Notes under the pieces: generated by a model
Seen by the model: only the letters and a program-made list of their open reading frames with translations
Database searches by the model: none
What the model was told of the DNA's origin: nothing
NCBI GenBank assembly: GCA_028720145.1
Contig: JAQYLJ010000055.1
Coordinates: forward strand, 1 to 47,268
Direction of reading: 5' to 3'
Origin: Clostridia bacterium
GTDB taxonomy: Bacteria; Bacillota; Clostridia; Oscillospirales; CAG-272
DNA length: 47,268 bases
Program-made: the position numbers and the translations under genes
In this document: one piece after another, positions 14,895 through 23,005 of the stretch
Position numbering within the stretch: position 1 is the first letter of the stretch
Layout: each line of letters begins with the position of its first letter

Positions 14895-16922
14895 TCAAAC
14901 ATCGGCATCGGCGCGGTATTTCGCGCCGTTCTCGGCGATGAACTGCTTGCGCTCCTGAATGGCGTCGCCGAGCAGAGTATCAAAGATGCGCGCGGTCTCC
15001 TCGGCATCGGCGGGTGTCACGGCGATGAGACGGCGGGTGGCGGGATTCATGGTGGTCTGCCACATCATTTCCGGCTCGTTTTCACCCAGACCTTTCGAGC
15101 GTTGGAGGGTGTATTTCTTGGTCCCGAGCTGTTTCAGAATCTCGGTCTTTTCGGTCTCGTTATAGGCGAAGTAGGTCTCGTTCCCCGCAGTAATCTCAAA
15201 GAGCGGAGACTCGGCGATAAAGACCTTCTCGCGCGCAAGCAGGGTGGGCAGAAGCCGATAAAAGAGGGTGAGCAACAGGGTGCGAATCTGGAATCCGTCC
15301 TCGTCGGCATCGGTACAGAGAATGATCTTCGACCAGCGCAGGGCATCGGGATTAAACGGAGAAATCTCGCCCTTAATCAGTTTCTTATCGAGTTCCACCC
15401 CGCATCCGATGACGCGGAGCAGGTCGACGATGATCGGGCTCTCAAAGATGCGGTCATACGACGCTTTCAGGCAGTTCAGGGTCTTCCCGCGGACGGGGAT
15501 AATCGCTTGGAAATCGGCGTTTCGTCCGGTCTTACAGGCGGACATAGCCGAGTCGCCCTCCACGATATAGAGCTCTCTGACATTCGGGTCTTTCGACCGA
15601 CAGGCGACGAACTTCTCGACCCGCGAGAGGGCGCTGTCTCCGCTCCCGCCCGAGAGTTTCTTCTTGATATCGACGACCGTGACCTCGGCTTTCTCGCGCG
15701 CCCGCTTGTTGATGAGCACCGCGTTCGCAAACTGGGCGGCAGAGGGATTCTCCACGAAGTAGTAATCGAGCTGCTGCTTCATGAAATCGGTCAGTGCCTT
15801 TTGCACAAAGGCGTTGCTGATCGCCTTCTTGGTCTGGTTCTCGTACGAGGTCACCGTGGATGCCGAACTGATGACGATGAACAGACAGTCCGCAATGTCG
15901 GCAAAGGTGATTTTCGACTCGTTTTTGTTGTATTTGTTTTGGTTTTTCAGATACTTGTCCACCGCGTAGGTGAACGCGATTTTCGTCGCTTTATCGGGAG
16001 AGCCGCCGTATTCGAGGTAACTGGAATTGTGGAAATACTCGGCGCGCCCGTTTCTCTGCATGGGGCAGAAAGCGATATCGGCGAGCACCGTGTATTCCTC
16101 GCGGTCGTCGGAATCGCGCCCGCGCTGCTCTCCCATGTGCCAGACCACGGGAGACCCCATCGAGTCCACCCCTGCCATCTCTTCGGCATACTCGGCGACA
16201 CCGCGCTCGTAGTAATACTCGGTCTCTTCAAACTTCCCGTTCTCGTCCTCGCGGCGGAGAATGAAATGCACCCCCGCGTTCACCACCGCCTGCCGACGGA
16301 GGGTCGCGTCATAGAACTCAAAGGGAATACGGATATCGGTAAACACCTGCTTATCCGGTTTCCACCGAATGATGGTGCCCTGTTTTTTCTTTTCCCGTGC
16401 GTCATACGGACGCACCCGCAGGTCCCCCGTGGGTTCGCCTTTGACGAAATCAATCTCGGAGACCTCCCGCTTTCTCGGCGAGTAGGACGCGACCTGCATA
16501 TATTCGGAGCAGTACTGCGTGGCGCACGCGCCGAGCCCGTTGAGACCGAGAGAGAATTTATAGGCGGAAGACGCGGAGTTGGTGTCATACTTCCCGCCCG
16601 CGTAGAGTTCGCAGAACACGAGTTCCCAGTTCCATCTGCCCTCTTTCTCGTTGAACCCGAGCGGGACGCCCCGCCCGAAGTCCTCGACTTCAATCGAGAG
16701 GTCGCGGAACGCGGTGACAATGATTCTGTCTCCGTAGCCCGCGCGCGCTTCGTCGGCGGCGTTCGCCAAGATCTCGAAGAACGAGTGCTCGCATCCCTCG
16801 AGGCCGTCGGAGCCGAAAATGACCGACGGGCGTTTTCTGACACGGTCAGCACCTTTGAGCGAGGTGATGCTCTGCTCGTCGTATTCTTTGGTTTTCTTCC
16901 CCGTTTTGATTTCCTCTGCCAT
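14895..16922 (-). CDS. Divergent type IIA topoisomerase B subunit (GyrB/ParE-like)
   Basis: A 675-residue ATPase/TOPRIM subunit. The GHKL ATPase has FFEILANAADEA (general base Glu50, Mg-binding Asn54), DFGRGVP near 81 and GLNGLGA near 127. The usual forms are VDNSIDEA, DNGRGIP and GLHGVGA. The TOPRIM half has VEGDSAMSACKTGRN and CTDADEDGFQIRTLLLT, where common GyrB reads VEGDSAGGSAKQGRD and TDADVDGSHIRTLLLT. Metal and ATP residues are thus kept but the surrounding sequence is unlike canonical gyrase. No A subunit is adjacent; gpmI follows directly. The ATG is followed by a typical polar N-terminus. It could be a ParE-like protein with its partner elsewhere or a third paralogue. Confidence 0.88.
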   Translation of the reverse strand: MAEEIKTGKKTKEYDEQSITSLKGADRVRKRPSVIFGSDGLEGCEHSFFEILANAADEARAGYGDRIIVTAFRDLSIEVEDFGRGVPLGFNEKEGRWNWELVFCELYAGGKYDTNSASSAYKFSLGLNGLGACATQYCSEYMQVASYSPRKREVSEIDFVKGEPTGDLRVRPYDAREKKKQGTIIRWKPDKQVFTDIRIPFEFYDATLRRQAVVNAGVHFILRREDENGKFEETEYYYERGVAEYAEEMAGVDSMGSPVVWHMGEQRGRDSDDREEYTVLADIAFCPMQRNGRAEYFHNSSYLEYGGSPDKATKIAFTYAVDKYLKNQNKYNKNESKITFADIADCLFIVISSASTVTSYENQTKKAISNAFVQKALTDFMKQQLDYYFVENPSAAQFANAVLINKRAREKAEVTVVDIKKKLSGGSGDSALSRVEKFVACRSKDPNVRELYIVEGDSAMSACKTGRNADFQAIIPVRGKTLNCLKASYDRIFESPIIVDLLRVIGCGVELDKKLIKGEISPFNPDALRWSKIILCTDADEDGFQIRTLLLTLFYRLLPTLLAREKVFIAESPLFEITAGNETYFAYNETEKTEILKQLGTKKYTLQRSKGLGENEPEMMWQTTMNPATRRLIAVTPADAEETARIFDTLLGDAIQERKQFIAENGAKYRADADV

Positions 16923-17515: not shown

Positions 17516-20500
17516 TCATTTGGTGCGATTCTCGGTATACCCGAAGCCGAGGTTCGCGACCGTCGGACGCTTGAAGTGGCTGCCGCCGAAGACCCCGATG
17601 CGCGAGGTGTGGGCGAGGTCGCGCAGAAGCTGTGTCGCGCACTTCTGCGCTTCTCTCGCATGGGTGCGGTCAATACCGCCCGTGAGAAGCAACGCGATCG
17701 GCTCAACAATGCCCGCCCGCTCCGCGTACTGTGAAATCATGCCGAGGAGATGCGCCGTCTCGCGGCGAACATCGAAGTTCCTATCGGCGTACGGGAGCGT
17801 GTTCTGCGCCACATATGCCACCTGTCCTCCGATCATGAAGACGGCGGTCACGGCGTTCGGCAGATAGAAGAGACAAATCTGGTTCTCGGTCTGTTCCATC
17901 TTCTTATTCAGTTGCAGATATCGGCTCAAAGACCCGATGAGGGTCGAAGAGGAGGTCACGGTCACGCCGACATGGCGGAACGCCGCGACGAGCGCCCCGC
18001 AGAGCGAACTGTCGAGCATCGAGACGAGCATACGGCTGGTGCCGAGCGACTTATTCTCGGACATCTTGAAGAACTGATAGACCGCGTTCTCCCCGTAGGA
18101 ATTTTCCGAGAAGATTTCGCCCGCTGCCTGATTCAGCATTTCGAGAGAGACGGGTTGGGTATCGAACAGCTGATCGGTCTCGGTCACATCGTTGACGACC
18201 AAGAGCAGTTTCCGCTTGGGCAGACCGTATTTCCGATACGCGCGTCGAAGCGCTTCACAGAGCCCCGTGAAGTCGAAGACGCGCCCGTTGCTCATGCAGT
18301 TCTGCGCGCCCGCGACGGGATAACAGAAATCGTCAATCAAAATACGGAGATAACTGCCGCTGACGAACACAATGCCGTTCGGCACCGCGGGCGGCGCTTT
18401 CAGCACCATGTTATCGCGTCCGTGATGCTCCATGTTATCCGCGCCGATTTCCTTATAGCGGGGTTCATCCGGCAGATAGGTCCCGCTGACGGTCAAGGGA
18501 TGCGGGGGCATGACATCCGGCTCTTCCTGCCAGCCGGCGAACGTGCTCCCGTGGATGGCGGGCGCGCCGATCTGTCCGAGCTTCGCCCCACAGTCGGTCA
18601 TGCCGTCATAGACGACGGTATTTCCTGCGACATAGAGAAGTCGGTACTTCTCGGGGATCATCCGTCCCTTGACCTCCACGTCGTCGGCAGGCATGACGGC
18701 GGGAATCTTACTCCATCCGCCGAAGTGGAATCCCTCCCTCTCGGGCGGATCCGCGGGGTAGATGGTGTCTCCCTCGTTGTAACTGTCCTGGTGATAGAGT
18801 TCTCCGTCCAGACGGTAGAACACCTTGAAGGTATCGGTGACAAATCCGCCGATATACACCACATCCTGCCCGGGCATCACGCCGGTAAATCCGTTCCACC
18901 CTTGGAACGCGAAACCGCTCCGATGCGGCACCTCGGGGGGTGTCAGGGGTTCTCCTTTGCGAGAGACGCCTTCCGCGAGGACATTCCCCTCGAGGACGAA
19001 CGAGTAGTGTCCGTACGCCTCGCTGTACTCCGCGACGCAGGTGAAGTCGTACTCGGGCATCACACTTGTAAAGTTTCGCCACTTGACAAAGGTCTCGTGC
19101 TCATGCTCGGGCGCGTCGGGCGGGACGATGGTCTCCCCGACATCGTAGGTGTCGATGCGGTAGATGATACCGCCGACTTTATAGGTGACGGTGTGCGAGC
19201 GTTCTTCATACTCGCCCACGACAATCAGCTCGTGCTCGGGCATGAACTCCGGCAGGTTCTTCCACCCGCCGAACACGAATCCCTCTCGCACGGGCGGCTC
19301 GGGCGCGGAAATCCTGCTCCCGAGTTCCACATCCTGAAACGAGACGAGCGTCCCGTCGATGAGGTACGAGATACGGAAGAGTTGCCCCTGATACCGTGCA
19401 CTCACCATGAGGTCATGCGCGGGCATGGTCTCGGGCAGCCCCTCCCAACGGCGGAAATCGTAGCGGTCACGCACAGGCGCGGCGGGCGGGAGAATCCGCT
19501 CTCCGAAGGCATACTCCTGTCGGGTCACTTCGGTCTCTCCCGAGAAGTAGGTCACGGTGTATTTCTGCTGACAGTAGGTGCCGTATGCCGTGAAGTTATA
19601 CGGCGGCATCACGCTGACATAGTTCCGCCATCCGTCGAAGCGATATCCGTCTTTTGTCGGCACCTCGGGATTCGGGGTGGGAGCGCCGACCGGAATATCC
19701 GCCTCGGTGAACACGCGGTTTTCGAGCATGAATGTAATGTGATAGGTACGCGCGGCGAACTTTGCCTCGACCGTCAAATTCTCGGCGGGCATCACCTGCG
19801 GCAGGTCGACCCACCCTTGGAAAATCCCCGCGGACGCGGGCGGCTGAATCTTCGGGGTGATGGCATCCCCCATATGATAGGTCTCTTCTCCCAAGACCTC
19901 GCCGCCCGAGAGATAGCGGACGGTATACGGAATCGCGAGGTGACCGCCGTGAATTTCGAGATGCCCCTCGGGCACCGTCTCGGGGACTTTCTCCCACGCG
20001 AAGGTCTCGCCCTCCCTCGAGGGGATATCGGGGAGAATCACGGGCGAACCCACTTCTGCCCGATGGCTCTCGGTGAGAATCCCGTCGACATAGATCTCGA
20101 CCAGGCAGACGGTATCCGCGTACGCGCCGTCCAAAATCACATCTCGGCTCGGCATTTGGGTGAGGTCTTCCGACCACCCCATGAACGGATATTTGTCGCC
20201 TTTCTTCTCGGGGATTTCGGGCGGGGTGAGCGGTGCTTCAAACGGCAGGGTTTCTTCTTTGACGACCGTACCCTCCAACCGATAGGTCACGCGGTAACTG
20301 TTTCTCGCAAACGAGCCGAACACATCGAGGTCGGACGCAGGCATATGTTTGGGCGCGTCCTGCCATCCCTCAAAGGTGAATCCGTCGCGGGGCGCCACGG
20401 CGGGGCAGGAAATCTCATCGCCCTCGTCGAGCGACATGACATACAGCACTTCCTCTCCCACGAGGAACCGCAGGCGGTAGTGGAGCACCCGCACATTCGC

Positions 20501-21979
20501 CTCGATGCGGAGGTCGTGGTCGGGCATGACATCGGGATACTCGCCCCAGTCGAGGAACTCGTACTCGTCCCGCTTCGGCGGGGTGGGCGGGGTAATCGGG
20601 GTACCTGCCGCGACTTTTTCACATCTGATGACCTCGTCCCGCACGACATAGGTCAGCGTATTGGCTTCCTGTCTCCCGTACGAACCGCTGAAAGTCGTCA
20701 CACCGGTTCTGGGATCGAGCTTCATCGCATTCCAACCGCCGAACGGCACGCCGTCTTTCGGAGGCGGCTGCGGCATGGTGAGCTGCTCCCCGTCTGCGGG
20801 GAGAATCTCGGCATATTTCTCACCGTCGATTTCAAAGACATAGCGGGACTGCACCGTCGCGTAAACCGCGTAGAGGTCGAGGTCATGCCCCGGCATCACG
20901 GCGGGCGCGTCCTGCCAGCCGCAGAAAGCGCATCCGCTCTTGGACGGAACCTCGACATCCTGCGGGATGGGGGTGCCTGCCGGAAGTTCGAGACGGGTAA
21001 TCACCTCGTTCTCGGTCATGAAAGTCAGGCTGTACAGTTTCGGAGCGACCGCACCCTCCACGGTCAGATCACGCGCGGGCATGGTCTCGGGCAGTCCGTT
21101 CCAACCGCCGAAGAGCATATTCTCCCCCTGTTCGACCTCGGGGGGAACCACGGGGTCACCAAAGGGATAATAGGTGGTGCGGTAGAGCGCGCCGTTCAGG
21201 TAATAATCAATCTTATAGCGGGCGGGATACATGGACGCGACCGTCGTCACATCTTTGTCCGGCATGACCGCGGGCAGTTTCCGCCATCCGCTGAAATAGT
21301 ATCCCTCGCGCACGGGCTTGATTTTTTTGTCAATCGGGGTGCCGACCGGCAGCTTCTCTTTGCGGAACACCTCGCCGTCCACCACCATGGTGAGGGTATA
21401 GAGTTTCTCGGTGAAGTTCCCGCGGATGACGAGGTCCTCGGCGGGCATGGTCTCGGGCATCTCCTCCCAGCCGCTGAACACATAGTTCGACCGCGTGGGC
21501 GGGTCGAGCACCGGCAGTTTCTCGCCGTAGGCACAGGTGAACGGGAACCGAAGAGTCTCGTCGATAACATAGGTCACACGATAAACTTTCGGAATAAAAA
21601 TCGCCTCATAGGTCGCGTTCTCGCAGGGGGTGACTCCGGTGAAGCCCTCCCAGCCGCCGAAATCGTACCCCTCCCGTTCGGGGGGCGTCGGCGCGGTCAC
21701 GGGTGTGCCGGCGGGCTGTTCGCTCATTCCGTACTGTTCGACCCCCGAGACGAAGAGAATCTGATATTTGTTTTCGGTGAAATGCCCCTCCAAAGTGAGA
21801 TCGCGGGCGGGCATCCGCGAGGGGACCTCGCCCCATCCGGCAAAGGTGCAGCCGGGCTTCGACGGTTTCGGCAGACCCGAGAGCCGCGTCCCCTTCTCCA
21901 CCAGCTCGGTATAACAGGGTTTCCCGTCGATCGCAAAAGTCAGACGGAATGTCTGACGGTCCTGATGTTTCTCCGCCAT
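17516..21979 (-). CDS. Giant InlB-type repeat protein with C-terminal PilM-like domain
   Basis: A 1487-residue protein. Residues 1 to about 1170 are 19 tandem repeats of about 61 residues. Each has a Y-x-[VL]-T-[YF] strand, then D-G-E-V, P-x-G-x-P-[IL]-x-P-P, F-x-G-W and a closing MPAxDLTV motif. This is the InlB B-repeat (Listeria-Bacteroides repeat) pattern. Residues about 1171-1487 are unlike the repeats: GIVFVSGSYLRILIDD, KRKLLLVVNDV, a SLCGALVAAFRHVGVTV helix-turn, NQICLFYLP and GGQVAYVAQ follow in the order seen in PilM/FtsA-type actin-like folds. No Sec signal, lipobox, sortase motif or membrane helix is visible, which is unusual for this repeat. GAGGAGG inside the end of the upstream gene precedes the ATG. 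The function is unknown; the PilM-like reading is inference. Confidence 0.8.
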   Translation of the reverse strand: MAEKHQDRQTFRLTFAIDGKPCYTELVEKGTRLSGLPKPSKPGCTFAGWGEVPSRMPARDLTLEGHFTENKYQILFVSGVEQYGMSEQPAGTPVTAPTPPEREGYDFGGWEGFTGVTPCENATYEAIFIPKVYRVTYVIDETLRFPFTCAYGEKLPVLDPPTRSNYVFSGWEEMPETMPAEDLVIRGNFTEKLYTLTMVVDGEVFRKEKLPVGTPIDKKIKPVREGYYFSGWRKLPAVMPDKDVTTVASMYPARYKIDYYLNGALYRTTYYPFGDPVVPPEVEQGENMLFGGWNGLPETMPARDLTVEGAVAPKLYSLTFMTENEVITRLELPAGTPIPQDVEVPSKSGCAFCGWQDAPAVMPGHDLDLYAVYATVQSRYVFEIDGEKYAEILPADGEQLTMPQPPPKDGVPFGGWNAMKLDPRTGVTTFSGSYGRQEANTLTYVVRDEVIRCEKVAAGTPITPPTPPKRDEYEFLDWGEYPDVMPDHDLRIEANVRVLHYRLRFLVGEEVLYVMSLDEGDEISCPAVAPRDGFTFEGWQDAPKHMPASDLDVFGSFARNSYRVTYRLEGTVVKEETLPFEAPLTPPEIPEKKGDKYPFMGWSEDLTQMPSRDVILDGAYADTVCLVEIYVDGILTESHRAEVGSPVILPDIPSREGETFAWEKVPETVPEGHLEIHGGHLAIPYTVRYLSGGEVLGEETYHMGDAITPKIQPPASAGIFQGWVDLPQVMPAENLTVEAKFAARTYHITFMLENRVFTEADIPVGAPTPNPEVPTKDGYRFDGWRNYVSVMPPYNFTAYGTYCQQKYTVTYFSGETEVTRQEYAFGERILPPAAPVRDRYDFRRWEGLPETMPAHDLMVSARYQGQLFRISYLIDGTLVSFQDVELGSRISAPEPPVREGFVFGGWKNLPEFMPEHELIVVGEYEERSHTVTYKVGGIIYRIDTYDVGETIVPPDAPEHEHETFVKWRNFTSVMPEYDFTCVAEYSEAYGHYSFVLEGNVLAEGVSRKGEPLTPPEVPHRSGFAFQGWNGFTGVMPGQDVVYIGGFVTDTFKVFYRLDGELYHQDSYNEGDTIYPADPPEREGFHFGGWSKIPAVMPADDVEVKGRMIPEKYRLLYVAGNTVVYDGMTDCGAKLGQIGAPAIHGSTFAGWQEEPDVMPPHPLTVSGTYLPDEPRYKEIGADNMEHHGRDNMVLKAPPAVPNGIVFVSGSYLRILIDDFCYPVAGAQNCMSNGRVFDFTGLCEALRRAYRKYGLPKRKLLLVVNDVTETDQLFDTQPVSLEMLNQAAGEIFSENSYGENAVYQFFKMSENKSLGTSRMLVSMLDSSLCGALVAAFRHVGVTVTSSSTLIGSLSRYLQLNKKMEQTENQICLFYLPNAVTAVFMIGGQVAYVAQNTLPYADRNFDVRRETAHLLGMISQYAERAGIVEPIALLLTGGIDRTHAREAQKCATQLLRDLAHTSRIGVFGGSHFKRPTVANLGFGYTENRTK

Positions 21980-21983
21980 GCGC

Positions 21984-22913
21984 TCACGCCTCCTCGGGGT
22001 CGAACAGCGCGTCTACCACGAGGTCTTTATCCGGCATGGTCTCGGGCAGACCCTGCCACTCGCGGAAGCGGAACCCCTGTTTGATGGGTGCGTCGGGCGT
22101 CGTGATCTTTTCGCCCTCCGGCAGCGTGACCCACGCGAACTTCTTGCCGTCCATCATGAAGTTGATCTTGTATTTTCTCTGATAGAATTTGCCCTCGATG
22201 GTGACGTCCTCGTCGGGCATGGTCTTGGGCAGTCCGCGCCACCCGCTGAACACATAGCCGTTCTTCGGGGGCACCGACGCGGGCTTGATCTCCTCGCCGA
22301 AAGACAGCACCGCCGTCTCGAAGACCTCCCCCTCCAGCACATAGGTGAGAGTATGGGAATTGAGGCGGAACGAACCGCGGAAAGTGAGGTCATGGGCAGG
22401 CATGGTCGCGGGAATCTCGCCCCAGCCGCTGAATGTATGATTATCCCATTCGGGCGCGACAATAAAGTCGAGGGGCGCGCCGTACTCGACCATGCGCTCA
22501 AAGGTCATGTCGTCGTCGAGGATAAAGGTCAGGCGATAGCGGTTGACCTTAAACGACCCTTTCAAGGTCAGGTTGGACTTCGGCATTTTCTTATACTTTT
22601 TCGTCCAGCCGCTGAAAGTATAGCCCTCTTTCTCGGGGAGCGGGCGCTCGGTGAGGTCGGTACCGCTCGACAGTTCGGTAGTCTTCCACACCTCGTCGTC
22701 CACCTGCTCGGTCAATATGTATTTGTCGGGCGTGAGGCGTGCCGTCACCGTGATGTCCTCTTTCGGGGCGATGTCGGGTAACCCCTCCCAGCCCGCGAAA
22801 TCAAACCCTTCCACCTCGGGCGGATCGGGCAGGACGGGCGCGGTGCCCGCCGCGCTCTCGCGCGTCGCATAGGTCTCTCCGTTCACAAGATAGGTCACCG
22901 TGATGTTCGCCAT
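21984..22913 (-). CDS. InlB-type five-repeat protein
   Basis: A 309-residue protein made entirely of five repeats of the same 61-residue kind as the downstream gene, starting MANITVTYLVNGETY and closing DKDLVVDALFDPEEA. There is no signal peptide and no anchor. Its stop lies four bases before the downstream ATG, at a natural repeat boundary, and the second gene has its own GAGGAGG site. The split therefore looks real and not like a frameshift. GGAGGA precedes this start. First gene of a two-gene operon. It may associate with the larger protein through like-to-like repeat packing, which is speculation. Confidence 0.8.
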   Translation of the reverse strand: MANITVTYLVNGETYATRESAAGTAPVLPDPPEVEGFDFAGWEGLPDIAPKEDITVTARLTPDKYILTEQVDDEVWKTTELSSGTDLTERPLPEKEGYTFSGWTKKYKKMPKSNLTLKGSFKVNRYRLTFILDDDMTFERMVEYGAPLDFIVAPEWDNHTFSGWGEIPATMPAHDLTFRGSFRLNSHTLTYVLEGEVFETAVLSFGEEIKPASVPPKNGYVFSGWRGLPKTMPDEDVTIEGKFYQRKYKINFMMDGKKFAWVTLPEGEKITTPDAPIKQGFRFREWQGLPETMPDKDLVVDALFDPEEA

Positions 22914-22976: not shown

Positions 22977-23005
22977 AGTATAACACGCTTCCCTCTCGAT
23001 TGCAA
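22977..23005 (-). promoter_or_regulatory. Promoter of the repeat-protein operon
   Basis: On the minus strand TTGCAA (23005-23000), 17 bases, TATACT (22982-22977), 64 bases before the start codon. Confidence 0.65.

Follow-up and report, generated by a model that had tools for sequence, protein, structure and literature searches.

In type IV pili, PilM is located beneath the membrane, where it binds the cytoplasmic tail of PilN. GspL (PulL), a component of the type II secretion machine, contains a membrane helix together with a periplasmic part. Proteins with InlB B-repeats (Listeria-Bacteroides repeats, PF09479) are, to our knowledge, exported and anchored; all uses of such repeats that we know of are extracellular, and a cytoplasmic use would be unusual. 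By their titles, structures 5eou and 2ych contain PilM with PilN. One account locates PilM at the cytoplasmic membrane, where it forms part of the base of the pilus machine, and regards PulL as a fusion of PilM with PilN (PMC10191384). BT_3980 of Bacteroides thetaiotaomicron (3hrg) has an actin-like fold of unknown function, and no paper on it was found in the open literature. A search of that literature by titles and the starts of abstracts, with subscription papers and preprints outside its scope, returned neither a PilM-repeat fusion nor cytoplasmic InlB-type repeat proteins.

We analyzed a 47,268-nucleotide contig of a Clostridia bacterium (JAQYLJ010000055.1, assembly GCA_028720145.1), hereafter the window, which contains two adjacent genes, B and A, with the following features:

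22977..23005, minus strand: candidate promoter of the operon, TTGCAA-17-TATACT, its -10 preceded by TG (consensus match only)
21984..22913, minus strand: gene B, 309 aa with five InlB-type repeats and no visible export signal
22545..22730, minus strand: repeat 2 of B, residues 62-123, with a KKYKKMPxSNLTLKG-type signature
17516..21979, minus strand: gene A, 1487 aa, nineteen InlB-type repeats and a PilM-like C-terminal domain, no export signal seen
18476..21955, minus strand: repeat array of A, residues 9-1168, from the family repeat HMM
21227..21406, minus strand: repeat 4 of A, residues 192-251, with the fixed landmark GYYFSGWR[KN]LP
17519..18472, minus strand: PilM-like domain of A with a predicted actin fold, residues 1170-1487, nucleotide motif 1 missing

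B lies upstream of A with a spacing of 4 bases, a purine-rich stretch precedes the start of both genes, and the two are probably transcribed from the same operon. A promoter scan gave 5 sites in the region against 2.2 (sd 1.2) in shuffled sequences, the candidate site being upstream of B; a terminator scan gave 4 sites against 6.4, fewer than in the shuffled sequences. The pair is flanked in the window by a gene for an HD-domain protein, which reads as a dGTPase, and by a gyrB-like gene. By reading, the former neighbor is common to the window, G033, and G088, and the latter to the window, G088, and G009; the neighbors vary among clades and indicate no pathway.

Our confidence in this architecture is high, and our confidence in the mechanism is low to moderate. 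We favor, at a probability of roughly 45%, a two-gene cytoplasmic module in which A would be an InlB-repeat rod with a constant head, a variable stalk, and a degenerate PilM dock, and B its short companion.

A first-pass annotation of the sequence had described two adjacent minus-strand genes with five and nineteen repeats of about 61 residues. A repeat HMM built from the repeats of A and B proteins recovered the same numbers, with five in B (residues 4-304) and 19 in A (residues 9-1168) at a spacing of approximately 61 residues. Both proteins belong to PF09479 (A, 3.6e-80, 264.5 bits; B, 1.9e-27, 95.6 bits; curated cut-off, 27), and the B-family profile matched the internalin B structure 2y5p (E 2.3e-5). 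Repeat identity within a protein averaged 29-30%, which, together with the retention of the pair in 12 genomes, argues against a chance gene pair. Each A protein has 19 repeats in the window, G033, and G088, 23 in the G024 clade, 26 in G009, and 32 in G026, where a weak extra match inside the C-terminal domain was left out of the count; each B protein has 5 or 6 across the family.

Compared position by position, 18 of the 19 window repeats matched those of G088 and 17 of 19 those of G033, and all 23 repeats of G024 corresponded to those of G083 and of G090. This correspondence between close species indicates that the repeats are not filler. Across clades, repeat 4 of A was 58-65% identical to its counterpart, compared with 35-50% for the best matches of other repeats, and GYYFSGWR[KN]LP occurred once in each A protein, at residue 221-227 (10/10). 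Only this head landmark clearly persists across clades, and it is fixed in every lineage seen. The signature of B repeat 2 followed the strict pattern in 8 of 12 B proteins, its segment was visible in all six that were aligned, and five aligned orthologs were 43-60% identical to the window B.

The distinct C-terminal domain that the first-pass annotation had set at about 317 residues was delimited at residues 1170-1487 (318 residues). Searches of Pfam and NCBIfam returned no PilM match for this domain or for three orthologs, only weak unrelated matches, and a sequence search of the PDB gave three chance-level matches only (E 0.7-0.97). The domain profile, in turn, found four stand-alone PilMs in the order, which carry PF11104 matches and, by reading, have pil-type neighbors. 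Alignment of the domain with 12 PilMs by hhalign gave 98% over 243 collinear columns, with reversed and shuffled controls at 0.1%. Against an FtsA set and an EutJ-like set the domain reached only 0.3% and 4.2%, whereas PilM reached 97.9% and 96.9% with the same sets, which places the domain far from the core of the fold family. Identity to the domain in the window ranged from 16 to 45% across the family, and the G024 clade scored just 0.0016-0.53 against the PilM HMM.

Structure prediction and fold search, the check proposed for the suggested likeness to PilM, put PilM first for both domains modeled. The domain of the G009 ortholog (pLDDT 62, pTM 0.61) was used for the main Foldseek search; PilM structures occupied ranks 1-9 (E 1.9e-12 to 1.5e-10, TM 0.37-0.56), followed at rank 10 by chain Ma of a type IVa pilus machine model and at rank 12 by BT_3980, a 257-residue chain related by fold only. 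The model of the domain from the window itself was of low confidence (pLDDT 51), and its PilM matches at ranks 1-5 superposed poorly (TM at most 0.30). Sequence profiles and predicted fold thus agree with the earlier suggestion, the non-actin fold that would have counted against it did not appear, and on both lines the C-terminal domain of A is PilM-related, through homology via intermediates and a PilM fold and with no direct PF11104 match. It differs from PilM in being fused to 19-32 repeats, in lying below detection by Pfam and NCBIfam, and in occurring in genomes in which no pilus genes were found. As in GspL, whose cytoplasmic domain was also matched by Foldseek (1yf5, rank 31; 4pht, rank 32), a PilM-derived domain is placed within a larger protein; however, no membrane helix or periplasmic part was seen in A.

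Nucleotide motif 1 (Asp-x-Gly) was missing in all 11 domain sequences, and on reading, motif 2 looked degenerate in each of the 10 sequences that span it. Among 14 PilMs of the order, seven likewise lack Asp-x-Gly, four of these seven retaining the Asp. The three best profile matches among PilMs (L025, L026, and L027) had lost both the Asp and the Gly, raising the possibility that the domain descends from such a nucleotide-free PilM line. These losses bear on a cytoskeletal alternative, in which the PilM-like domains would polymerize in the manner of actin and the repeats would decorate or cross-link the filament. The predicted actin-like fold, the very long repeat arms, and the strict pairing with B are consistent with such a filament, but the state of the two motifs does not favor one that is ATP-driven and actin-like, a bulky repeat rod on each subunit would be unusual for a polymer, and we know of no case in which PilM forms filaments. 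We therefore consider a filament unlikely, and less likely than a cytoplasmic rod module.

The maximum hydropathy over 19 residues was 1.44 in A and 0.84 in B; by this crude measure, neither has a signal peptide or a membrane helix. The last 60 residues of both proteins lack a sortase-like motif, no C-terminal hydrophobic segment was present, and Pfam matched neither a leucine-rich repeat nor an anchor in A or B. The hydropathy and motif checks thus uphold the earlier statement that signal peptide, sortase motif, and membrane helix are absent from both. The upstream start with a signal peptide that had been named as evidence to the contrary did not appear: no ATG, GTG, or TTG lies between the start and the nearest in-frame upstream stop (18 codons in B and 11 in A), and the first repeat begins at residue 3-10 in all 22 proteins examined in the genus (10 A and 12 B; starts of the relatives picked by eye).

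With the B profile as query, 78 loci were retained from GTDB species genomes, 8 of them with true orthologs. N-terminal hydropathy was at most 1.1 in all 15 ortholog frames from these 8 loci that were uncut at the 5' end, whereas it was at least 1.7 in 53 of 62 other such repeat frames, the remaining nine being lower and some of them fragments by reading. In the genome of the window, 14 regions encoding repeat proteins were covered, and each of the eight frames that passed the motif filter has a hydrophobic segment at its N- or C-terminus, in several cases with lipobox-like sequences. This 1.9-Mb genome gave 57 PF09479 matches, several of them in large lipoprotein-like proteins. Cysteine content was also tried as a separator, and by it A and B were indistinguishable from exported repeat proteins.

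A and B belong to the same repeat family as the internalin-like adhesins but display neither the N-terminal signal nor the wall or membrane anchor and leucine-rich repeats of these exported proteins. From the lack of recognizable export signals, we infer that both are cytoplasmic. They might instead be surface proteins exported without a classical signal, the PilM part serving as a passive end or an export handle. The export signals of other PF09479 proteins, in this genome and in most of the non-orthologous frames elsewhere, argue for this explanation. The absence of any signal, anchor, or membrane helix in the window proteins, the position of the first repeat, the low N-terminal hydropathy of the orthologs, and the failure to find type IV filament genes argue against it, as does the fact that PilM and the cytoplasmic domain of GspL act on the cytoplasmic side. 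Unconventional export is, in our judgment, improbable and ranks below a cytoplasmic rod module.

PilC, prepilin peptidase (PF06750), and full-length PilB (PF00437) were not found in any of the 12 carriers, so that none has the combination of PilB, PilC, and prepilin peptidase that marks a genome with type IV pilus components. Six carriers had weak partial PF00437 matches, all of them short of the cut-off (E 4e-5 to 9.5e-4). The same searches found PilC, PilB, and prepilin peptidase in 10 other genomes of the genus, all below 1e-29; sensitivity is thus unlikely to explain the absence in the carriers. The PilN family search identified no partner, but it missed the pilus-bearing controls as well and is given no weight. 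Mutual exclusion of the pair and pili was not significant (P = 0.13 with 12 carriers and 0.15 with 11; 10 pilus genomes of 69, species not independent), and only the absence of pilus genes in the carriers is used here as an argument.

On these results, the pair is unlikely to be part of a pilus. A divergent type IV filament system missed by our searches, with the pair as its part or regulator, would account for the PilM homology and for the weak PF00437 matches in six of the 11 domain carriers, and PilM does act in type IV filament machines in the familiar cases; nevertheless, with PilC, full-length PilB, and prepilin peptidase not found in the carriers and found elsewhere in the genus, we hold such a system to be very improbable. 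The pilus operons examined in the genus, those of G059 and G085, encode a divergent, 455-478-aa PilM-like protein that contains an acidic insert (L033:3720-5153 and L034:396-1760). Pfam barely detects these proteins or does not detect them (L034, PilM_2 at E 0.01; L033, no match), and the fusion-domain profile does not find them.

Among 69 genomes of the genus, the C-terminal domain turned up in 11. A match in G012 (E 0.004) was dropped because it lies antisense to what reads as an infB gene. Gene B was found at E<1e-150 in 12 of the 69, namely the same 11 and G021, whose contig ends inside A. The two-gene order, which the first-pass annotation had proposed to look for in related genomes, recurred in all 12 genomes holding B, with B directly before A (in G091 and G021, just the start of A is on the contig). 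The A frame was open over 1268-2304 codons in 10 genomes. A chance or recent functionless fusion in the course of drifting could produce the patchy distribution and the divergence of the domain, but open frames of this length, the positional identity of the repeats, the 43-60% identity of B, and the retention of repeat 4 in all 10 A proteins make it scarcely credible.

No second fusion emerged when samples of 197 genomes from the order and 391 from the class were searched with the profile; each search gave four matches besides the window, and six in all were stand-alone or pilus-operon PilMs. The four class-level matches were weak: L182 and L184 read as pilus PilMs and L183 as a kinase-type frame, and L185 is a 77-residue frame with a stop. 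The eight named ortholog records are metagenome assemblies labeled Clostridia bacterium (5), Ruminococcus sp. (2), and bacterium (1), and their habitat labels include goat cecum and yak rumen (one each).

In the cytoplasmic rod module that we favor, A would be an elongated rod with a constant head marked by repeat 4, a stalk of 19, 23, 26, or 32 repeats, and a PilM-descended end, and B, with its 5-6 position-specific repeats, would bind along the rod or at the head. The rod shape, the docking, and the tether or scaffold role are what we infer from this arrangement. The PilM-like domain may have left the pilus and probably keeps its docking function alone. It would anchor the rod at one end to a partner, the likeliest being a membrane protein's cytoplasmic tail, as proposed from the structures of PilM with PilN and from the position of PilM at the base of the pilus machine. 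The repeats would then keep B and other bound cargo at a defined distance. A constant head, a variable stalk, and a terminal dock would fit a tether or ruler inside the cell. In gene A of G009 (L011:8252-14116), 61-residue tandem units are near-identical (up to 100% identity), a sign of recent stalk growth.

More tentatively still, the pair may represent a previously undescribed intracellular scaffold or ruler that organizes membrane-bound machinery in pilus-less gut Clostridia, built from giant InlB-repeat rods of lineage-specific length, a nucleotide-free PilM (or, in relatives, lysine-rich) tether, and an obligatory short repeat partner. Parts from opposite sides of the membrane are joined in one protein: adhesin-stalk repeats are apparently used inside the cell, and PilM, familiar from type IV filament machines, seems to function in the absence of such a machine. 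If this is true, PilM would be a reusable docking module, and the pair would exemplify a bacterial repeat rod that lies inside the cell and can evolve in length. The pair is also a caution that a surface-adhesin annotation of a PF09479 protein can be mistaken.

Two relatives, G089 (L172:1-4182) and G017 (L173:3411-8120), encode giants with at least 20 and at least 24 repeats, respectively, that have no PilM and end in a lysine-rich tail with a final EIRRRMxxLMR; acidic Glu/Pro/Ala or Glu/Val/Pro linkers separate some of their repeats. Across the genus, only the A and B genes themselves matched the B profile better than these giants (E about 1e-64 for the giants), and in a comparison with A and B only the giants aligned with A proteins over most of their length. 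Their N-termini run off the contigs, so that an export signal is possible for both. A gyrB-like gene (Pfam) one or two genes away points to an equivalent locus, and the replacement of PilM by a lysine-rich tail suggests that the C-terminus of A-type giants is an exchangeable module or dock. A gene of approximately 407-440 codons with no Pfam match follows both giants (L172:4149-5468 and L173:1980-3200). The gyrB/parE-like gene of the window (14895..16922, minus strand) scored 458 bits against 740 for the best NCBIfam model, well under the cut-offs.
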